A DNA stretch of 64,000 nt from Candidatus Kapaibacterium sp. (GTDB lineage Bacteria; Bacteroidota; Ignavibacteria; Kapaibacteriales; NICIL-2): the NCBI GenBank assembly GCA_026003475.1, contig BPHJ01000001.1, positions 1,946,501-2,010,500 on the forward strand. The letters run 5' to 3'. Position numbers and translations under genes: made by a program. Positions 6,974 to 42,209 of this stretch are shown here, piece after piece (positions within the stretch are counted from its first letter, which is position 1; every line of letters begins with the position of its first letter). The notes under the pieces were generated by a model. That model had not been told where the DNA came from. It ran no database searches and saw nothing but the letters and a program-made list of their open reading frames with translations.

Positions 6974-9145
6974 GTGTGCGATATGTCACCAGAGAGCCGA
7001 ACACGGCTTGGGATGGTGAGTCCTGAGCGCGTTGCTACCGTGTGTTTCGATGTCCACGCCTGTTTTGCCGAGGGCGAGCCGAGCAACAGTCTTGCGCCAG
7101 TGCTCCATACCGTTGCCCTGTTGACGCTGCACCGATTCGACCGTCTGCCACCGCATCGCCAGTCGCTCTCGGTCATCGGCAGTAACATTGCCGGAGCGCT
7201 CGTCCGACTGGGCACGCTCGACCGACGGCTCGAGGGCGTGATGGAGGCATGGAAGTTTGGACTCAACGCTGCCGGCCAGCCCTACGATCCCCATCGCATC
7301 CGCACCGCTGTTCAATTGGTCACCGCCCTTCGCCCGATCGAGCCACGCGCGTTTGCACAAGGCGTCGCGCAGTACGTCGTCAGCATCGAACTTGCCAAGC
7401 GGGGACTTCCGCAGACCTTGCCAATGCTGGCATACCGGATTCTCCAGCCACCGCCCTGGGCCGCACTGCTCGAATGCGGGAGCATGCAGAGCGGACTGTT
7501 GTGGACCATGACGGCACTTCTCGGAGCATTTTCACCACCGGCAGCACCAGCTGTCCGTTTCACCGTTGCCGACTGTGATCGGCGGCAGGAGGCATTGGTC
7601 CGCATGCTTGCAACCTTCGCCCCGTGGGAGATTCCTGTCGGCCTTGTCGAGTCGCTCCCAGCCTGCGCGAAGTCCCCGCTTCGCTTCGATCGAATTATCG
7701 CCATTGCCGACAGCGTCGTCGAGGGTTATCTCGATACCTGCTGGCATTTGCTCCATCCTGGCGGCAAGGCATTGGTTGCACTGCCTGCGGTCCATCGGGA
7801 ACAGTGGTGGGAACACCAGATTCGCCAAGCGCGCGCTGCCGATCGCATCGAGGCACTCATCGAATGGTCGCCCGATGATTCTCCCCAGCATGGATGGATA
7901 CTGATCCTGCTGCGAACAACAGCACCCGTGCATGTACGCCGGCGCACGCTCGTCGGCAGACTCGTCGGCGACTTCTCGGTGGAACGCATCGAGGAGCTCT
8001 GCGACGGGCTTGCACGCGGCAGCATCGAAAGCTCATGGCTGGAGTGGACCGCCCACCAACGGATCACACCCAGAACAGGAACAGCAACCCCCTCATTGGC
8101 AACGCTGCTGGAGCACTCCAGCGAGCGTGGCGTGGACATCAGCCCGCTGGTTATCGGCACGAATGGCTCACTCCGGTTTGACGACCGCATCACCTCTGGC
8201 GAAGCGCTCCGCATCGCTATTCGTTCCACGCAGGGACTGCGCATGCACGAAATGCGCTACTACTACTCGCTCGACCAGTGGTGGCACCGCATCCGTCCGC
8301 TCTTGGGGCAGTATGGTCGGATGGTCTGGCAAACGGTGGAGCAATCCCTCATTGAGCAGCTTCTTTGTGTGCCGAGCGTTCCGTTGTTTGCTGCGCGTGC
8401 TCTTGCGGTGCGCTGGTGGCAGGTGGTGGAACCAGATCTGTGGGGTATCGAGCAGTTCGGTGCCCGCAGCATTGTGGAAAGCATCCTTGGCAGCATCGAG
8501 CGGAAGCTGCGTACGCACGGTGTCAAGCTCTGGAAGCAGCTCGACGAGCGGGAACGGTTCGTGCTGGAACGCTGTGTGCCTACTCTTGCTCAGCGGGTGC
8601 AGCAGGAACTCCGTCGCCAGGCACACCAGCGGCAGAGCGAGCTTCAGCAGATGGACGCACGCATCCAGACGCTCACGGCAGAGCTGGCCGCCTACCGCCA
8701 CCGCATGAGCCAGCTCCACGCACGCGCCAAAGCACACGATGTGCCCCACGATGCACCCGAACTCATTGATAGCACCTTGCCGCTCCAGAACGAACTCAGC
8801 CAGCTTCTCAAGGAAATGGTTGTCGTGCAGAGCGAGCTGAAGATGCTCCAGAATAGCCGCGCCTTGATCGAGCAGCCGAGCCAGAGCGATTGGTTCTCGC
8901 CTGTTGTTGCGCGCTGCACAGCGCAGCTTTTACCTGCATTGCAAGCGGTGCGTCGGTCCCTCGATGCACGATCAGCCTGGGCGCTACTCGAAGGGCTGTG
9001 GGAAGAAGAGCTTCGCGCGGAAGCGGAGCACGTCTGGGAATCACTCGTCGAGGAGGTCTGCCGCCAATTGGAGCGCATCTGGGAACGCATGGCAACAGAG
9101 CCCGCGACGAACGCAGCACTTCGGGCAGCAGTTCGGGCGCAGTAA
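6974..9145 (+). CDS. Degenerate N6-adenine-methylase-like protein with C-terminal coiled coil
   Basis: A 723-residue protein of uncertain function. Residues about 160-320 have the strand order of a Rossmann methyltransferase: an ECGS-type turn (about residue 169), then VRFTVADCD, then FDRIIAIAD, then LLHPGGKALVALP, the last being very like the strand after the catalytic loop of HsdM. The catalytic NPPY/F tetrapeptide and the DPACGTG loop are both absent, so methylation is unlikely. Residues about 540-640 are rich in Gln, Glu, Leu and Arg and look coiled-coil. It lies about 160 bases before a broken hsdM head, at the left edge of the defence island. The start codon is uncertain (ATG at 6974, 6983 or 7013). 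It could be a specificity-like or structural partner. That it descends from a methylase is an inference from fold pattern only. Confidence 0.5.
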   Translation: MCDMSPESRTRLGMVSPERVATVCFDVHACFAEGEPSNSLAPVLHTVALLTLHRFDRLPPHRQSLSVIGSNIAGALVRLGTLDRRLEGVMEAWKFGLNAAGQPYDPHRIRTAVQLVTALRPIEPRAFAQGVAQYVVSIELAKRGLPQTLPMLAYRILQPPPWAALLECGSMQSGLLWTMTALLGAFSPPAAPAVRFTVADCDRRQEALVRMLATFAPWEIPVGLVESLPACAKSPLRFDRIIAIADSVVEGYLDTCWHLLHPGGKALVALPAVHREQWWEHQIRQARAADRIEALIEWSPDDSPQHGWILILLRTTAPVHVRRRTLVGRLVGDFSVERIEELCDGLARGSIESSWLEWTAHQRITPRTGTATPSLATLLEHSSERGVDISPLVIGTNGSLRFDDRITSGEALRIAIRSTQGLRMHEMRYYYSLDQWWHRIRPLLGQYGRMVWQTVEQSLIEQLLCVPSVPLFAARALAVRWWQVVEPDLWGIEQFGARSIVESILGSIERKLRTHGVKLWKQLDERERFVLERCVPTLAQRVQQELRRQAHQRQSELQQMDARIQTLTAELAAYRHRMSQLHARAKAHDVPHDAPELIDSTLPLQNELSQLLKEMVVVQSELKMLQNSRALIEQPSQSDWFSPVVARCTAQLLPALQAVRRSLDARSAWALLEGLWEEELRAEAEHVWESLVEEVCRQLERIWERMATEPATNAALRAAVRAQ

Positions 9146-31726: not shown

Positions 31727-31777
31727 ATGTCTCGGCGCTTTCTGATTGATTCCACCGTCCCTAACACGATGCCGTGA
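31727..31777 (+). other. 16-codon ORF repeating the DUF1156 gene's start
   Basis: MSRRFLIDSTVPNTMP, preceded by AGAAAGGA, ends in a GTGA overlap with the GTG start of the methylase, whose own start is SSTRFLIESTFP. The two share about 20 of 24 bases over the FLI-ST region. It is either a relic head of another DUF1156 gene or a leader peptide that couples translation. Confidence 0.55.
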
Positions 31778-34513
31778 GCTCGACACGCTTCCTGATTGAA
31801 TCCACCTTCCCCCTCCAGGAACTCTCCGCCGAAGCCCGGCGCGAAAAAGCCATCCGCCACGGGCATATCTCCACGCTCCACGTGTGGTGGGCGCGCCGAC
31901 CGCTCGTGACCGCTCGCGCCGCCGTGCTCGGCGCCTTGCTCACCGACGAAGCGGAAGTGGACGACAGGTTCATCGCTAACATCTGCCAGTGGGAGATCCA
32001 CGACGGCGACGTCGCCGGACGCTACCTGCTCGAGCAAGCGCGGGCGCTCATCCGCCAACGCTTCGGCCAGTCGCCCCCGAAGGTGCTCGATTCCTTCGGT
32101 GGTGGCGGCTCGATCCCGCTGGAAGCCCTGCGCCTGGGCGCTCAAAGCTACGCCGTGGACTACAACCCCGTGGCGTACCTCATCCTCAAGGCAACCATCG
32201 AGTATCCCCAGCGCTACGGGCAAAAGCTCGTGAGCGAGGTGAAACGCTGGGGCGAATGGGTGCTGGAACAAGCCCGCCGGGAGCTGGCCGCGTTCTACCC
32301 CGCCGTGGGCGGCGAAACGCCCATCGCCTACATCTGGAGCCGCACGATTCGCTGTCCGAATCCTGCCTGCGGCGCCGAAATCCCGCTCTTCCGCCAGTTC
32401 TGGCTCGCCCGCAAGGACAACAAGAAGGTGGCGCTCCGGCCCATCCCCAACCGCGCGCAAAAACGGGTGGATTTCCAGATCGTAGGGGCGCACGGCGGTG
32501 CGCCCTTCCCGCCGGGTTTCGACCCCGCCCAGGGCACGGTCTCCCGCGGCAACGCCGTGTGCCTGGTCTGCAACACCAGCGTGAAGGACGACTACGTGAA
32601 AGCCGAAGCCCAGGCCGGGCGCATGGGGCATCGTTTGGTGGCGGTGGTCACCACCCGCGGGCGCGGGCAGGGGCGCAACTACCGCCTGGCGACCGAAGCA
32701 GACCTCGCCGCCTTCCGCCAGGCCGAATCTGCCCTGCAACATCTGGTAGGGGCGAACGGCCGTTCGCCCCTACAACCTTCCCCCTGGCCCTTCAACCTCC
32801 CCTGGGTGCCGGAGGAACCATCGCCAGGCACAATCGGGTCCGGTCCCGGTAAGCGTCCCAGCTACGGAATGACCACGTGGGGGAAGTTCTTCAACCCCCG
32901 CCAGCTCTTGGCGCTTTGCACCTTTGGCAAGTGGGTGCGGGCGGCGCACCGCGAAATCCTCCGCCAGACCCACGACCCCGACTTCGCTAAAGCCGTGGCG
33001 ACGTATCTGGGATTGGCGATCGGCAATCTGCAAAACTACACTTGTGTCTCTCTGGTTGGGACAACGTGGAGAAAGATGTGGAACAGCTTTCTCGGGACAT
33101 CACCTGCATATGCGTGGGATCTATGCGGAAGCGAACTCTTAGCGTGCCACTGGTAGCTGGAAGTCATCCTTGGAGCGAATTGTTGCTGTTTGCCTCAGCC
33201 GCGAATCCCGGATTCCGCAGGTCGGCGCTGCCCATCACGGCTCGGCGGCGGCGCTGCCCTTCCCCGACAAGCATTTCGACGCCGTGGTGATTGACCCGCC
33301 CTATGCCGATAATGTGCCCTACGCCGACCTTTCGGACTTCTTCTATGTGTGGCTGCGGCGCACCGTGGGCGACCTCTACCCCGAAGCCTTCGGCACGCCG
33401 CTCGTGCCCAAGGACGAAGAAGCCGTCGTCAACCCGGCGCGCTTCGGCGGCAGAAAAGAGGGCGAGCGAATCGCCCAGGCCCACTACCAGCGGCTGATGC
33501 AGCAGTCCTTTGAGGAGATTTACCGCGTGCTCAAGCCCGAAGGCATGGCGGTGGTGATGTTCACCCATCGCTCCACCGCAGCGTGGGAAAGCCTCATCCG
33601 GAGCCTGCTGGACGCCGGGCTGTACCCCACCGCCTCCTGGCCGGTGCACACGGAGATGGAAGCCTCCACGCACCAGCGGGGCAAGGGCGCCATCCAGAGC
33701 ACCATCCTGATGGCTTGCCGGCGGCGTCCGGAGAACGCCGGCGTCGGCTGGTACGCCCAGGTGCGGGCGGAGCTGGAGCGGGTCGTCCCCGAACGCTTGC
33801 GGGAGTTCTGGCAGGCGGGCATCCGCGGGGCGGATTTTTTTATCTCCGCCATCGGACCGGCGGTGGGCGTCTTCGGGCGCTATCGCAAGGTGATGCGCCC
33901 GGATGGGGTGGAGGTCACGGTGGGCGATCTGCTGGAGGAGACGCGGGCGATTGTCACGGCGTTTGCGCTGGAGCAGTTGGGGCTGGCGCGGTTGGACAAG
34001 CCGACGCGGTTCTACGTACTCTACCGTTGGGCTTACGGTGGGGAGGAGCTCTCCTTCGACGAGGCGAACAAGCTCGCCAAGAGCGTCGGCGCGGATTTGG
34101 ACGAGCTGGCGGCGGAGCACCGGCTTATCGAGCGGAAAGGCGAACGGGTGCGAGTTCCGATTTTTGCCAAGCGTCTCGGTAGCGAGGCATTTCTAAAAGC
34201 GCTCCAAACTGCGTTCGACGAGGGACGCTTGGGGCAGATGGCGGAAATTGATCACGTGCATTTGCTCTTGCATCTGTGGAGCAAGAGCGATGTCGAGGCA
34301 CTTGCTGCAGTGCTGGGTCGGGCGGGTGTTCTGGCGGAGGAGCATCCGCTCTGGCGGACGGCGCAGGCGCTGTTGGAGGTCGAGCAAAGCGCTGGCGGCG
34401 AGGTAGCCGAGGAAGCAACGGCGTTGGCACAGCTTCTGGGCAGCAAGCGGAGTCTGCTCCGTGGAGTTGCGGCAGTGCAGGACAGCGGCCGGCAGTTTCG
34501 GCTGTTCGGATGA
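31774..34513 (+). pseudogene. DUF1156 DNA methylase (Hma-like), split by a cluster of frameshifts
   Basis: The first frame (31774-33156) starts at GTG and contains the DUF1156 opening (EARREKAIRHGHISTLHVWW) and a zinc-type CPNPACGAEIPLF. The second (33170-34513) contains VVIDPPYADNVPYADLSDFF, the DPPY catalytic motif of a beta-class amino-methylase, and a C-terminal helical region. Together they would form one protein of about 910 residues. Between about 33050 and 33135 the conserved sequence jumps among all three frames (CVSLW, WDNVEK, MWNSF, YAEAN) and a TAG falls in the last. The enzyme is therefore either inactivated or misread here. In intact loci it would modify host DNA alongside the helicase and the DUF499 ATPase. 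Confidence 0.82.
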
Positions 34514-34595: not shown

Positions 34596-37223
34596 ATGGG
34601 ATTGCGAGGAGTCAAGTCGGTCTGGGAGATCTGCGAACCGCATCGGGATGTGTTTTCGCGGGACCTGGACCCATCGCTGTTCGCGATAAGTCTGCACCAT
34701 GTGGCTTGTGGCGACGGCGATCGTGACTACACGGACGCAGAGCGATTCTTTTCGCGCACGTTCATGACGCGAGCGCTGGAGAATTTGCTCGAGCGTGTCA
34801 TTGGGCGGCTTGCGGGGCGGGGAAGTGGTGCGCCGATTTTGCGGCTGGAGACTGCATTCGGCGGTGGCAAGACCCACACGATGACGGCGCTCTTGCACAT
34901 TGCGCGTTCGCCGGAGGTGCTTGGTTCGCACGAAGCGATCCAGCCGATTCTGGAGCGGTTAGGGCTACGTGCGTTGCCGGGCGATATCCGGGTTGCTGTC
35001 CTCGATGGGCGTGGTCTGAACGTCCGCGGGCGCAGCATCGAGGGTGGGCTGACGGTCAAGACGCTCTGGGGCGAGCTGGCCTACCAGGTGGGCGGGCGCG
35101 ACGGGTACGCGATGCTTGCAGATGCCGACCAGACGTGCACATCGCCCGGGGCGGGACGCTTGACGGAGTTTCTCAAGCGTTACCAGCCGGTTCTTGTGCT
35201 GATGGACGAAGTGCTCGAGTACCTCATCAAGGCGCGGGCGGTGAAGGTGGGCGATAGCAGCCTGATGGAGCAGACCGGGACGTTCTTGGGAGATCTGACC
35301 GCTGCGGTGAGTGCAGTGCCACAGGGTGTACTGACAGTTTCGCTGCCAGCTTCTTCATTGGAAGTCCCAACGGAAAGCAAGGATGATGCAGAACGGTTCT
35401 TTCAGTTTGCCAAGAAGATATTCGGGCGAGTGGAGCTGGTGGAAACGCCGGTGGCAGAGGATGAAGTTTTCGGTGTGTTGCGGCGGCGGCTCTTTCAGAG
35501 CGTTGGCACTGAGCGTGATGCCAAAAAAGCAGTGGACCTTCTGCGCAACTACTACGACAGGTACGCCCACGCATTTCCGGATCGTGTGCTTTCGCCGGAT
35601 TACAAGGAGCGGATGCTCCGGGCGTATCCATTCCATCCCGAAGTTGTGGACTTGCTCTACGAGCGTTGGGGGCCGCACCCGCAGTTTCAGCGCACGCGTG
35701 GCGCGTTGCGGCTGTTGGCGCTTGTGATACGGAATCTCTGGACGCGGCGACCAGGCTCAGCGTTCATGATTCAGCCGCACCACATTGCGCTCAGTGATCG
35801 CTACATCCGTGGGGAGATCGTGCGGTTGCTCGATAGTAGCTGGGAGTCAATCGTCACCGGCGATGTGCTCGATCGCGCAGCGAAGCTCGAGCAGGAGTTG
35901 GGCGGCGATTACATGAAGGAGCAATTGGGCGTGGGAGCGGCGACGTGCGCGTTTCTCTACAGCATTTCGGCTGGGATGCAGCATTCTGGAGCGACGGAGG
36001 AGGAAATTCGGATGGCGCTCCTGCGGCCGGATATCAATCCTGCGATGGCGACGGAGGTGTTGGGACGCATGCGGGAGCAGCTGTGGTATTTGCGCTATCG
36101 GGATCGCCGCTATCTGTTCAGCGCGCGGCCGAATTTGAACAAGGTCATCCTCGATTTCGAAGGCCAGATTTCCGACGACTCGGTGACCGAGGCGTTGGAG
36201 CGTCGGCTGGGTACGGTTGCTGGGCGTGGCATGGACATATTCCAGATGGTGATAGCGCCCGAGTCGCCGGAGAATGTGCCGGATCGAGCGCAACCAACGC
36301 TGGTGTTGCTTCCGCTTGAGGTGGAAGATCCGCTCCAGTGGATGAAGCGAGCGATGCAATCGGCAGCCGACCGCATTCGGGCAAATCGGAACATGCTGAT
36401 TTTCGTTGTGCCGGAGAGCGCGAAAGTAGAAGCGCTTCGTTCGGTGGTGCGGCGCTTAGTGGCACTCGAGCAGGTTGCTGCGTCGCCGTCGTTCCGTGAG
36501 ATGGATCGGGAAGATCAGTTGCAAGTGAAGGAGCAGCTCAAGGACAAGGAAGCCGAGCTCGAAGGGCAGCTGCGCCAGGTGTATCGGCGGGTATTCAGGC
36601 CTGGGGATCCTGAACCTGTGGAGATTCGGGGGAGCAATCCCGATGCAATCAAGGCAACGGCGCTCGATGAATTCGTCAAGGGAACGCTCGACCAAGCAGG
36701 GGTACTCTTCGAGCGTTTGGCGCCCGAGTATCTGGCCGAGACGCTGCGGCTGGATGAAGAGCGTCCAGTACCGCTGTCGCAGGTAAGCAACTTGCTCACG
36801 GGTGTTGTCGGTCAGCCGGTGGTGGCCAATCCTGCAGGCGCGGTGCAGGATGCGATACGGAAGGGTGTGCAGGAGGGCCTTTTCGCGGTACGCGTCGCTG
36901 ATCGCCTCTATCACCGCGAGGAAGTTCCGCCAGATGTGCTCAATCGGAATGATGTTGTGTTGGTTCGTGCGACAGAGCAGGTGGCGACGCCGCCGCCAGT
37001 GGAACGTCGGCAGCTCCAGCTGCGGGTGAGGACAAGTGCAACGCAGCTCTATCCACTCCTGTTGGCGGCAAAGGAGAACTTCTCCAAGCTGACGGAGGCC
37101 TCGCTGACAGTAGAGGTGGACGATCCGACGGGGGAGCTATCGGACGCGCGTGAGCAGCTCGATCGGCTCTTGCGGCAGTATGGTTGCACGGTGGAGTGGA
37201 TTGAGAATGGTCCCTCAAGCTGA
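34596..37223 (+). CDS. DUF499 ATPase (Hma-like)
   Basis: An 875-residue protein with Walker A TAFGGGKTHTMTALLHI (about residue 88), Walker B VLVLMDEVLEYL (about 205) and the long helical C-terminus of DUF499 proteins. This family is named for its recurrent pairing with DUF1156 methylases in anti-phage loci. It probably supplies ATP-driven action on foreign DNA or on partner subunits. The gene starts 82 bases after the methylase, and its frame is intact in contrast to that of the methylase. The last residues, CTVEWIENGPSS, reappear almost exactly as a relic at 37987, which shows that a second gene of this family once lay downstream. Confidence 0.85.
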   Translation: MGLRGVKSVWEICEPHRDVFSRDLDPSLFAISLHHVACGDGDRDYTDAERFFSRTFMTRALENLLERVIGRLAGRGSGAPILRLETAFGGGKTHTMTALLHIARSPEVLGSHEAIQPILERLGLRALPGDIRVAVLDGRGLNVRGRSIEGGLTVKTLWGELAYQVGGRDGYAMLADADQTCTSPGAGRLTEFLKRYQPVLVLMDEVLEYLIKARAVKVGDSSLMEQTGTFLGDLTAAVSAVPQGVLTVSLPASSLEVPTESKDDAERFFQFAKKIFGRVELVETPVAEDEVFGVLRRRLFQSVGTERDAKKAVDLLRNYYDRYAHAFPDRVLSPDYKERMLRAYPFHPEVVDLLYERWGPHPQFQRTRGALRLLALVIRNLWTRRPGSAFMIQPHHIALSDRYIRGEIVRLLDSSWESIVTGDVLDRAAKLEQELGGDYMKEQLGVGAATCAFLYSISAGMQHSGATEEEIRMALLRPDINPAMATEVLGRMREQLWYLRYRDRRYLFSARPNLNKVILDFEGQISDDSVTEALERRLGTVAGRGMDIFQMVIAPESPENVPDRAQPTLVLLPLEVEDPLQWMKRAMQSAADRIRANRNMLIFVVPESAKVEALRSVVRRLVALEQVAASPSFREMDREDQLQVKEQLKDKEAELEGQLRQVYRRVFRPGDPEPVEIRGSNPDAIKATALDEFVKGTLDQAGVLFERLAPEYLAETLRLDEERPVPLSQVSNLLTGVVGQPVVANPAGAVQDAIRKGVQEGLFAVRVADRLYHREEVPPDVLNRNDVVLVRATEQVATPPPVERRQLQLRVRTSATQLYPLLLAAKENFSKLTEASLTVEVDDPTGELSDAREQLDRLLRQYGCTVEWIENGPSS

Positions 37224-37532
37224 GCTAATCTCGGGAAATTGCGCCTGTGAACGCGACGTGTGGTCTATCAGTACAATGGGCGGATATGGTCTCGTTGGCT
37301 CAACGGATGCGCCTTTGCTCGCTGTCGTTGCCAAACAGTGCTCACAGACGGGGGCATTGTTTTTTCACATGTGATGATTATCTTTGCTCAGAGTGGCGTG
37401 CGCACCAATCGTAGGGCATGATGTTCAAAGCAAGCAGCCATGATGGCTGCAACGTGGTAGCTTCTCTTCGCCGAAGGAACGACGTGTGGGTGATGGTGAT
37501 CTCCACCAGGCAGCCACGTGAAGTATGGCGCC
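37224..37532. other. Non-coding stretch after the DUF499 gene
   Basis: About 310 bases without a credible gene on either strand. Short frames exist but have no conserved features. The right end leads directly into an attC-like palindrome. Confidence 0.6.
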
Positions 37533-37663
37533 GTCTAACAACCGGTTGCAGCGGACGGCGCTGCGCTGCTCGTGGAAGCGGGCGCGATTTGCAAAGGAAG
37601 TAGCGGGTTGGCCGTGGTGGTGTCTTGCAGTCGCCGCCGCTGCCGCTGAGCCACACGTTAGGC
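37533..37663 (+). repeat. Candidate attC-like integron recombination site
   Basis: The left end is GTCTAAC (fits RYYYAAC) and the right end GTTAGGC (fits GTTRRRY). The inner arms are imperfectly complementary: GGTTGCAGCGG on the left pairs with CCGCTGAGCC on the right, with one extra base on one strand as attC sites need. Length is 131 bases, within the known range. No integrase gene is in the window. It lies just before the truncated DUF262 gene. Confidence 0.5.
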
Positions 37664-37718: not shown

Positions 37719-38000
37719 ATGGCTACACAGCGTTATTCGGTAACGCCGCATCCTATCGAAACCATCTTGACGTGGGTCAAGTCGGGCGAGATCGCCATCC
37801 CGGAGATTCAGCGCCCGTTTGTATGGGAGGCAACCAAGGTTCGTAACCTACTCGACTCGCTCTACCATGGTTATCCGGTCGGCTACCTCATTGCCTGGCG
37901 AAACCCCACTGTCAAGCTAAAGGACGGCACCCCGTCGGCCGGCAAGCGGATCCTGATCGACGGCCAGCAGCGTGTCACCGCGCTCGGTCGAGTGGATTGA
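37719..38000 (+). pseudogene. Truncated DUF262 gene (ParB/Srx-like nuclease head)
   Basis: Ninety-three codons encode [20 protein letters not shown], then [20 protein letters not shown] and [16 protein letters not shown]. The IPxIQRxFVW and DGQQR motifs are the hallmark of DUF262 (GmrSD/ParB-type) proteins, which normally run to several hundred residues and cut modified DNA or act in defence loci. The gene stops immediately after the DGQQR motif, where the sequence switches to the relic DUF499 tail, so it has been fused to something else by a deletion. Confidence 0.75.
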
Positions 38001-38019
38001 GAATGGCGCTTCTGAGTAG
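37987..38019 (+). pseudogene. Relic C-terminus of a second DUF499 gene
   Basis: Ten codons and a stop encode [10 protein letters not shown], matching the end of the DUF499 protein at 37190-37223 (VEWIENGPSS). GAGTGGATTGAGAATGG is identical in both. Bases 38020-38185 hold no gene. Confidence 0.6.
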
Positions 38020-38185: not shown

Positions 38186-38710
38186 ATGGTTGCAGACAAG
38201 GAACTCTTCACAGAAAGAGTAAGTGCAGGCGATCGAGCGTTCTTTTTTGACGTAAGGGAAAGCATCAAAGGAAGTAAGTACTTGGTCATTAGTGAGTCGA
38301 GAAAAGAACGTGGTACGTATGTACATAGTCGGGTGATGATTTTCCCAGTGAATTTGGAAGCATTCGTCGAAGGCTTCCATAAGGCACTTCGATTCCTGGA
38401 CGTAGCGAAAACGAGGGCAGCATCCCACAGCATCGAGAACATCCGACAGAAATACCCCAAAGCGTACACGCGCTGGTCACCTGAGGAAGATCAGAAGTTG
38501 ATACTCAATCATCAGTCAGGCATGAGCGTAGTGGCATTAGCTCAGCTTTTCCAGCGACAACCGAGCGCGATTCGATCCCGCCTGGTGAAACTCGGATTGC
38601 TGCCAAGAAGGACTCGCCCCCCACACACACACAAGCAAAAAGTAACCCACTGCGTCATGGCGGAGCAGTGGGTAATCCTTCCACCTGCGGTCGATGAGCG
38701 CCCGCTTTAG
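38186..38710 (+). CDS. DUF3276/PUR-domain protein fused to a helix-turn-helix domain
   Basis: A 174-residue protein. The first about 75 residues (KELFTERVSAGDRAFFFDVR, then VMIFPVNLEAFVEGFHKAL) match the DUF3276 family, bacterial PUR-alpha-like single-strand nucleic-acid-binding proteins typical of Bacteroidota and spirochaetes (BpuR). Unlike the usual short form, it continues with RWSPEEDQKLI and GMSVVALAQLFQRQPSAIRS, a Myb/SANT-like helix-turn-helix. The pairing suggests a sequence-recognising regulator, but no target is evident. The last 20 residues run into a stem-loop that may be a terminator, so the real C-terminus may be shorter in function than in frame. It converges on the T9SS gene at 38707 with a four-base overlap. 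Confidence 0.8.
   Translation: MVADKELFTERVSAGDRAFFFDVRESIKGSKYLVISESRKERGTYVHSRVMIFPVNLEAFVEGFHKALRFLDVAKTRAASHSIENIRQKYPKAYTRWSPEEDQKLILNHQSGMSVVALAQLFQRQPSAIRSRLVKLGLLPRRTRPPHTHKQKVTHCVMAEQWVILPPAVDERPL
38645..38673. terminator. Bidirectional stem-loop between convergent genes
   Basis: ACCCACTGC at 38645-38653 pairs perfectly with GCAGTGGGT at 38665-38673 (9 bp, 11-base loop). It sits where the PUR-HTH gene and the T9SS gene converge and overlaps the end of the former. There is no long T run. Confidence 0.55.
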
Positions 38711-40095
38711 CGCAGCACCTGCAGCATCCGCCGTTCGAGCCGGTTCTTACTCCGTACTTCAACGATGTAGGTGCCGCTCGAAAGCGTCTGCAGGTCTAAC
38801 CACCCAACAGTCCCCCTTACCAACATGGGAATAGGCTGCACCCGACCGTAGAGGTCGTAGAGTCTGATAGCCTCAATCGGGTAGTCATCCCCTGTATGAA
38901 CCGATACCGCATCCTGCGCTGGGTTGGGTGCAAGAGTAAGAGGAACGCTCTCTGCAGTAGGTGGCACACTAAGCGTAATTAAACGGCAATCGACAAAGGG
39001 TGTAGAAGTAGGCTCGAGATTGCACCAACAGGTAACACGATAGGCATATAATGAGTCGGGAGTATATGACTCCGATACCATTAGCCAAATTGCGGTTCCT
39101 GTCGGCGTGCTTATCGTCGAAGATAAGTTTGGATTTGCACGGCCGCCAAAAAGCAGGACACGCTCAATATTATTCCTACGAATGAACCAACGAATGAAGT
39201 CAAATGCAGGTTGCTGGCGGAAACGTTCCATCGCCTCGGTACTGTTGACCCATCCACTGGCAAATGGTGCAGCGCGGAAGTAAAGCCCGATGTTGTCAGT
39301 GGTATCACCAAGTGGGAAAGTTGTACCATTGTAGCCTTGATCAAGTCCTTGAACCAATACTGCCACGTTACCAGTATCCACTGGAAAAACATATACCCAC
39401 GCAGTGGCCACACCATTGGTATCTACCCCGTTATCTTGGGGGGCGACAAGGCAGGGCTCCAGGGTTGTTCCTGCCGTTGATTTGGCAAATTCAAGACCGT
39501 CTCGTGCTGCGAAGGGATAGGTTCCTCGTTGGATTATCTCAGTGCCGCAGCCATAGGCGGTCCCATCGCTCGTACAGTAACAGTTCAGCGCACTGGTGTT
39601 CGCACTATCAACTGCTCGATAGATCCACACGGGAGTATAAGGCGGGAATGGGAGCTGCGCTCCATCGCGTACATGACCGGCTAAGAGCACTTGTGTCCCC
39701 ACTGTGTGCTGCGCATGCCAGGTTTGGAACGTCGGATTTGCGGAAAAGATTCGCAGTGCGCTGTCGCTATCAAGAATGCTGTCCGGAAGCGGTGATGCGT
39801 TGATGTAGATAGGTAAATCTGTTGTGTCAATGGGCTGAGTTAGTTCCGAAGCACTGTAATCATTAGGAGCTTGCTGGAGGACTTGAACTGCGATGAGCCG
39901 ATCGGGAGCACGGAATGCGTAGAGCCACAGCGGGGACGTACCGTTTTCCGAGAGTATTGTTGTTCCCATCGCGGAGGGCATAGAAGTTCCACCAATCCGC
40001 TGTGCTGCTGGAAGACCGTCGAGCGCTGTGAATGGAATCTGCGCACCAGCGGATACTGCACACAGAGCGCATGCAACAAAACGCACAATGTTCAT
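38707..40095 (-). CDS. Secreted protein with T9SS sorting domain
   Basis: A 462-residue protein starting at the ATG 40095, which has a strong ribosome-binding site (GGGAGG) seven bases before it; the upstream open frame is noise. Residues 1-18 are a signal peptide (RFVACALCAVSAGA). The middle is a repeated beta-rich domain with several cysteines, of unknown role. The last 80 residues (LAPNPAQDAVSVHTG, then LQTLSSGTYIVEVRSKN) are a type A sorting domain of the type IX secretion system, so the protein is exported across the outer membrane and probably attached to the surface. It is the last gene of the minus-strand secreted-protein run 47456-38707. Confidence 0.85.
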   Translation of the reverse strand: MNIVRFVACALCAVSAGAQIPFTALDGLPAAQRIGGTSMPSAMGTTILSENGTSPLWLYAFRAPDRLIAVQVLQQAPNDYSASELTQPIDTTDLPIYINASPLPDSILDSDSALRIFSANPTFQTWHAQHTVGTQVLLAGHVRDGAQLPFPPYTPVWIYRAVDSANTSALNCYCTSDGTAYGCGTEIIQRGTYPFAARDGLEFAKSTAGTTLEPCLVAPQDNGVDTNGVATAWVYVFPVDTGNVAVLVQGLDQGYNGTTFPLGDTTDNIGLYFRAAPFASGWVNSTEAMERFRQQPAFDFIRWFIRRNNIERVLLFGGRANPNLSSTISTPTGTAIWLMVSESYTPDSLYAYRVTCWCNLEPTSTPFVDCRLITLSVPPTAESVPLTLAPNPAQDAVSVHTGDDYPIEAIRLYDLYGRVQPIPMLVRGTVGWLDLQTLSSGTYIVEVRSKNRLERRMLQVLR

Positions 40096-40181
40096 GGCAT
40101 ACCTCCCAGAGAGTGGAACATCGAGTTTTATCAATAGCAAATTTAGCACGAGAGCGGGAATATTCACCGCCCAACACTTAC

Positions 40182-42209
40182 TCATCGTCGTAATGGCTGT
40201 CGCCGACTTGCAGCACTGGCGCGTGCGACCGATGGCTTCCCATAGACGCCACTTGCTGCACGCAACACCACCCGGTAATAGTAGGCTTCGGTGATCTCGG
40301 TGCTCCCATCGGTAAATCGCGTCACGCTGGCTGGCAGCAACGGACTGATCGGCACAAAGGTTTCGCCATCGCGACTGCGCTCGACAATAACAACGGTGCC
40401 CTCGGCAACATAGCCGACGTAGTGCCACGTGATGGTCACACCATCGGCGGTGACAACCAGGGTATCAACTTCTGGCACAGGCGGAACGCGGGTGTCATAG
40501 CATTGAACCGAAATCCGGCGGGATACCCGCGACCGATTGCCTGCACTATCGTAGGCCACAACACCGTAGCTGTAGAACACACCAGCCCGGACTGTTGAAT
40601 CGGTAAAGCTTCGCACATGGGCAGGCACACCTGCTGGTGTCAGAAGCTGATCGGACCCATCCTCCTCGCGCCGAACGATGAAGAATCCAGCCACATCCGG
40701 TTCCGCTTGCGGCTGGCTCCAGCGAAGCGTAATCACGCCATCGCCGGGAACTACTTCTTCCAACTGCGGCCGCTGGGGCGGAACGATGTCCGGCAGAACA
40801 ACTCGAACAGGTGCGCTCCAGCGGCTACGGTTGCCGTGCCGATCGACAACTCGAACGCGGTACCAGTACGTTGTCCGCCCGCTGGCAATCGGAAGCGTTT
40901 CGATGAACGTCGTGTCGGTGATGATGTCGAGCGAAACGAGTGTAATTGTCGAATCGGGGTGGAAAAGCGAGCGCCCCACCTCATACCCCCACACATCGCG
41001 GGATGGACTTTTCGACCAGCGCAGGCGCGCTTGACCAACTTCTCCGACCCCATCGAGCAGCAGCGGCAGCGCCGGCGGGATAACATCAGGCACAGGCACC
41101 GAATGCGGAAGCGAGAGCTGGCTTTCTCGGCCGTAACGATCGACAGCAGTGACAGCGTAGGAAACATCACCTTCGAGTTCTCGCGGGCGATCAACCCAGA
41201 TGGTATCCCGCAGAATTTCAAGCGTCAATCGCTGTCGCGTCGTCGTGTCGCCGGTTTGCCAGCGATAGACGTGGTAGCCGATTGCGCGGCGATCTTCGAA
41301 CGGAGGATGCCACCGGATAATGACACTATCGCCTTCGGCTCGGGCCACAAGGCCATAGGGAGCTTGGAGCGGACGGCTGTCGAACGGCAGAACAGTGACG
41401 GTATCGCTTCGTTCGCCTTCGCGACCGAGGAGGTCCACTGCACTGATGGCGTAGGCGTAGAGCGAGTCGTTCCGCAGATTGCTGTCGGCGAAGAGGTATG
41501 CAATTGGTAATGATTCATTGAGGAAGATCGTCGCGACTGGTTCTGCAGTAATACGGCGGAGCTGAGTGCTTCCGGGCTCGCGGCGCCAGACGTGAAAGCC
41601 CCAGATTCCAGCCTTTTGCGTTCCACGAACATCCCACACAAGGTGTGCCCCGCTATCGGTCGGCATAGCACGGAGTCCGGTGGGCTTAGGAGGAAGGACG
41701 GCGCTGCCGGCAAGAACACCCTCGACCGCAGCAATGCGCTTACCGCCAGATTCGATGGCGTAGTCGTAACGCTCGCCCGCCCGGGCTGTCGAGTCGAGCA
41801 GATATGTCCCGAACCAGCGGGCAACGGGCAGTACTGTGCTGCTCTGTGCGAGAATCATGCCGCGCAGTTCACGAGCAATGACTCGCCGGACGCTATCGGA
41901 GGTTTGCGGATGTTCGTGTGCATCGTACCACAGCAAGAGCGTATCACAAAAGCTCCCAGCGCCGATCTGCAGGCAAAGTTGCCTGAATTCTTCGCGAGTG
42001 CCGCGGCGGGTTTCGGCGATGCGTTCGTAGTTGCCACGTCCTGCGCTTCGACGCAGAACGGTGTACGTTGCTGGAAGAGTGTCATTGGAAGGCGGTAACC
42101 ATACGATCGCTACACCGCGCTGCACGCCAAATGCCCAAGCGGACGGCGGCGACTGCGCATGGCTGGAAAGCGCAGAGAGGAACACGAGGACGGCGACAAG
42201 TAGCATCAT
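40182..42209 (-). CDS. Secreted protein of fibronectin type III domains
   Basis: A 675-residue protein with a signal peptide (LLVAVLVFLSALSSHAQ) and about five fibronectin type III-like repeats. Each repeat carries the pattern V-x-W-x-PP or I-x-W-x-P followed by Y-x-Y-x-V-x-A-x-D (for example YAISAVDLLGREG, YAVTAVDRYGRES, YRVRVVDRHGNRS, YGVVAYDSAGNRS). No catalytic motif and no T9SS sorting domain are visible, so it may be periplasmic or an outer-surface component of a complex with its neighbours. The start ATG overlaps the stop of the upstream frameshifted gene by four bases, which implies translational coupling in the operon. Confidence 0.8.
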   Translation of the reverse strand: MMLLVAVLVFLSALSSHAQSPPSAWAFGVQRGVAIVWLPPSNDTLPATYTVLRRSAGRGNYERIAETRRGTREEFRQLCLQIGAGSFCDTLLLWYDAHEHPQTSDSVRRVIARELRGMILAQSSTVLPVARWFGTYLLDSTARAGERYDYAIESGGKRIAAVEGVLAGSAVLPPKPTGLRAMPTDSGAHLVWDVRGTQKAGIWGFHVWRREPGSTQLRRITAEPVATIFLNESLPIAYLFADSNLRNDSLYAYAISAVDLLGREGERSDTVTVLPFDSRPLQAPYGLVARAEGDSVIIRWHPPFEDRRAIGYHVYRWQTGDTTTRQRLTLEILRDTIWVDRPRELEGDVSYAVTAVDRYGRESQLSLPHSVPVPDVIPPALPLLLDGVGEVGQARLRWSKSPSRDVWGYEVGRSLFHPDSTITLVSLDIITDTTFIETLPIASGRTTYWYRVRVVDRHGNRSRWSAPVRVVLPDIVPPQRPQLEEVVPGDGVITLRWSQPQAEPDVAGFFIVRREEDGSDQLLTPAGVPAHVRSFTDSTVRAGVFYSYGVVAYDSAGNRSRVSRRISVQCYDTRVPPVPEVDTLVVTADGVTITWHYVGYVAEGTVVIVERSRDGETFVPISPLLPASVTRFTDGSTEITEAYYYRVVLRAASGVYGKPSVARASAASRRQPLRR

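Follow-up and report, generated by a model that had tools for sequence, protein, structure and literature searches.

A lone attC site beside a defence island in Candidatus Kapaibacterium and its relationship to a chromosomal integron of the genus

An attC-like inverted repeat adjoins a defence island in the chromosome of Candidatus Kapaibacterium sp. (contig BPHJ01000001.1), which raises the question of whether it is a true cassette recombination site, and, if so, where it came from and whether it brought in the defence genes around it. The locus was analyzed within a stretch of 64,000 nucleotides, hereafter the window, in whose coordinates all features are given (forward strand except where noted). 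The initial annotation of this DNA had proposed an integron relic resembling a CALIN, through which single defence genes such as the adjacent DUF262 gene arrived as cassettes.

Sequence and structure of the attC site

The site occupies positions 37533-37663 (131 bp), has a long central part, and is delimited by a covariance match with exact ends and by both arms. Its end boxes, namely R'' (GTCTAAC, 37533-37539) and R' (GTTAGGC, 37657-37663), satisfy the consensus RYYYAAC and GTTRRRY, while in the model alignment the L'' box (CAGCGG, 37549-37554) is complementary to the L' box (CCGCTG, 37643-37648); as in other attC sites, the base at 37548 is extrahelical. The consensus heptamers and the paired inner arms with an extra unpaired base, both described in the initial annotation, are therefore real features of the site. 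The left-arm pattern CTAACAANNNGTTGCAGCGGAC is matched without mismatch over the 22 nt at 37535-37556, against 0.02 matches expected in shuffled sequences when up to 3 mismatches are allowed, and the right-arm pattern CCGCTGAN6CGTTRRRY is likewise matched without mismatch at 37643-37663. The right spacer is 1 base shorter than that of other sites and two outer spacer pairs are broken in the alignment, suggesting that the site is slightly worn, at an early stage. A second copy of the L' motif lies directly upstream of 37643-37648 and permits a competing register.

Two covariance models were built, each without the window site and those of G043, the genome of a sister species in the same genus that is described below. 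The model R1, derived from 30 short sites trimmed to 60 nt, contains real covariation and scores the aadA and G043 sites at about 69 bits; it misread the long window site in a 51-nt parse that scored just 20.2 bits and was rejected, and the model R2, trained on 11 other long attC sites, was added as a complement. R2 recovers exactly 37533-37663 with 45.3 bits (E 4.6e-10), of which the left-arm share is not independent, given that part of the training set was fetched with a pattern from the window left arm, so that the right arm and the pairing constitute the independent part of the score. By the same model the G043 sites score 46.9 and 45.6 bits, and aadA and aadB, which lie outside the training set, 49.5 and 37.0 bits, while dfrA7 (51.7 bits) is, like dfrA1 and the L205 site, a training member that matches by construction. 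The window site thus falls within the range of known attC sites (37-69 bits).

Folding is less distinctive: the whole-strand free energy is ordinary relative to shuffles (z -0.69), and the unconstrained fold, being no more stable than that of shuffles, is uninformative. Owing to the repeated L' motif, the attC arms and ends of the bottom strand can pair in either of two registers, canonical (p 0.05 with the ends included) and shifted (p 0.16, likewise with the ends), and the same p values for other long attC sites show a wide spread. The covariance model, one of the checks named in the initial annotation, agrees with its identification. A search of the window against Rfam gave no match. Taken together, 37533-37663 is a genuine attC, a gene-cassette recombination site, with recombination by IntI predicted from its sequence. 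Among the matches listed from GTDB genomes, the left arm occurs in at least 117 stretches from many phyla, at least 39 of them with a fitting right half behind it. Given this wide distribution of similar arms, the cassette could be of any origin, even on a native platform.

The same chromosomal interval in related genomes

The genome containing the window is a single contig of 2.16 Mb. No IntI scored over the cut-off near the attC or anywhere else in this genome, extending the earlier observation that none is adjacent; its three tyrosine recombinases are XerD (over its cut-off), a XerC-like protein and one divergent member. The search for further sites proposed in the initial annotation came up empty, as scans of the genome with R1 and R2 found no second credible attC; the sole other model match, at genome position 254247 (20 bits), was rejected as lying inside an ABC-transporter (ABC-ATPase) gene. 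The attI region of G043 has no match in the window; of the parts of a complete integron, intI is absent from the genome and attI from the window.

An intact integron is present at the same spot in G043. Behind its intI (497 bits, above the NCBIfam curated cut-off) come, in this order, a presumed attI region containing two GTTAGRCGGAAACC motifs, two identical DUF4236 cassettes, each with a terminal 60-bp attC, and a RibD_C-like ORF. The tandem arrangement of these identical cassettes (L147:1160-3565) indicates a recent cassette duplication. The arms of the G043 sites are like those of the window attC, which differs from them in length (131 versus 60 bp) and in its central part. The gene for a T9SS-sorted protein beyond the G043 integron is the same gene as that behind the window site (38658-40428, reverse strand, with a Por_Secre_tail domain, which indicates a T9SS-bearing phylum), and from 38658 onwards synteny is conserved, the segment 38658-46239 being 82% identical at the nucleotide level. 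The left boundary of the occupied interval is the gene termed geneA (6974-9145), as indicated by G299, in which the interval is empty and 74 bp separate geneA from the T9SS gene. In G298 the same gene order is found at the interval without intI, leaving G043 as the only sister genome with an integron there. Elsewhere than this interval, G298 has a single worn attC (R1 41.5 bits) behind an ORF fragment identified as RibD_C-like by eye rather than by family search (L216:1897-2373), so that the genus has two orphan sites.

The window retains a remnant of the region directly upstream of intI at 37254-37500. Within it, 37257-37386 is 77% identical to G043 152804-152936, just upstream of intI, and family-wide this segment matches nothing besides that region. 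The alignment runs on to about the intI start codon, and for its outer part none of 1000 shuffles was as good. The platform sequence common to both genomes is only about 240 bp, and neither intI nor attI remains were found in the window. By comparison with the anatomy of the G043 integron, 37501-37532 is presumed to be the 3' tail of a lost cassette, whose body would have been deleted along with intI and attI. The intact integron at the same spot makes the window attC a documented relic of a known kind rather than a new system, and to this extent the earlier proposal holds; a cluster, as implied by its likening to a CALIN, is contradicted by the presence of one credible site, one below the threshold of two attC sites without an integrase that is the default of IntegronFinder 2.0 (PMC9024848). 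Default detection of CALINs requires two sites, and single-site cases can be real (PMC9024848).

The DUF262 fragment and the defence island

The DUF262 (GmrSD_N) coding sequence begins 55 bp behind the attC (37719-38000; PF03235, 1.9e-19). The initial annotation took it for a gene, and it proves to be a truncated 5' fragment with 89 codons of a gene for about 598 amino acids. Its counterparts include stand-alone genes in G043 (598 aa, 86% nucleotide identity) and G298 (81%), and a 600-aa protein of a Meiothermus plasmid (90% amino acid identity), encoded there within an hsdM-DUF262-hsdS operon. Homology to the full-length genes stops at about 37985, at the start of a second hmaC-like 3' tail fused to the fragment; a 25-bp direct repeat is found at the 3' end of hmaC (37186-37210) and in this second tail (37982-38006), and a motif similar to the tail is present at the end of hmaC in G073. 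Judging from its length, the truncated product cannot function as a restriction enzyme. In an integron cassette, one gene would sit immediately 5' of an attC belonging to it, and here the gene is cut at about 37985 with no attC behind it. A cassette origin is no more than possible, the sole hint in the sequences being a degenerate attC-like left arm behind the full-length G043 gene, itself weak (expected 0.011 by chance); the likeness to an attC right half upstream of that gene is not significant (103/1000 shuffles).

The full-length G043 gene is itself bracketed by two 166-nt sequences (L249:4692-4857 and 7164-7329, 73% alike), each a copy of the 3' end of the T9SS gene that precedes it, a situation paralleling that of the window fragment between two hmaC tails. 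The segment 37985-38657 of the window is AT-richer, has a DUF3276 (PUR-alpha-like) ORF at 38186, and gave no convincing DNA match when compared with 395 genomes from the phylum.

The defence island adjoining the site (9254-37223, about 28 kb) encodes a DpdE/DrmD-type helicase, an MmeI-like enzyme, DUF3644 and AAA_14/DUF4143 proteins, helicases, and HmaA, HmaB and HmaC. No attC was detected by R1 or R2 at any other island gene, which implies that the island was not assembled as cassettes that still keep their sites; the attC hence does not account for the assembly of the island. A frameshift or a sequencing error divides hmaB into two ORFs, 31774-33156 and 33170-34513. G043 has its own diverged helicase/DUF1156/DUF499 (Hma-like) system (L146:6435-13717; G043:C1:136817-138928), a few kb from its integron and on the opposite strand.

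Origin of the site and comparison with known integrons

The G043 integron at this locus, the intI-upstream remnant of about 240 bp, and the congeners lacking intI together point to the genus's own integron, and we consider it very probable that a small chromosomal integron decayed in place between geneA and the T9SS gene and that the window attC is its last site. The first cassette would have lost its body to a deletion that also took intI and attI but spared the intI-upstream sequence and the attC of the lost cassette. A second break, placed after this deletion only tentatively, truncated the DUF262 gene behind the site at about codon 89 and fused it to the duplicated tail of hmaC. Were the integron functional, IntI would attach to the folded bottom strand and swap cassettes at the crossover point in GTTAGGC, which in integrons lies between G and TT. 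Since the genome has no IntI, the site is now inert unless an integrase arrives, and might still be able to recombine in that event.

The two hmaC 3' tails that bracket the segment would also make sense if the attC and DUF262 fragment were a chance fragment, unrelated to the genus's integron, acquired by recombination at the hmaC tail during growth of the island; DUF262 genes also stand alone elsewhere in the genus, and one lies within an operon on the Meiothermus plasmid. This origin is unlikely, given that the segment also holds the sister's intI-upstream sequence, in the same order and in the same chromosomal interval. Far less plausible is that the inverted repeat is a terminator or a chance likeness to attC, as might be supposed from its unremarkable overall fold and the GC-rich region; against this, both arms fit the consensus perfectly and the covariance match is highly significant. 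It is just as improbable that an integrase working in trans is mobilizing DUF262 or other island genes as cassettes: the site still folds into the attC form in both registers (p ~0.05-0.16), but the genome is devoid of IntI, DUF262 is truncated, and there is no second attC and hence no excision between two attC sites. Somewhat speculatively, the integron platform and the island might share an insertion hot spot, with stand-alone DUF262 genes circulating in the genus as cassettes that were later fixed, and the integron having seeded the island; we regard this too as doubtful.

Integron decay is seen here before and after, with the empty, complete and relic states of one interval observed within one genus. 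CALINs have been proposed to be degraded integrons (PMC9024848); the present case agrees with this picture and adds to it a same-locus series of states. It also cautions against taking a gene in a defence island for a functional cassette because it lies beside an orphan attC.

Complete integrons are already known from the Bacteroidetes/Chlorobi group (PMC9024848), and the sedentary chromosomal type of this group is represented at the locus by G043, with its intI, attI-like repeats and attC cassettes, whereas the window has lost intI and attI and keeps one attC. With CALINs and lone attC sites the window shares the occurrence of attC without an integrase, but it has a single site, under the default of two. 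The attC sites of class-1 plasmid integrons (aadA, dfrA1, dfrA7) have the same layout of R and L boxes, the extrahelical base and the range of covariance scores in common with the window attC, whose arm TTGCAGCGGAC is, in contrast, of the environmental attC type found in many phyla.
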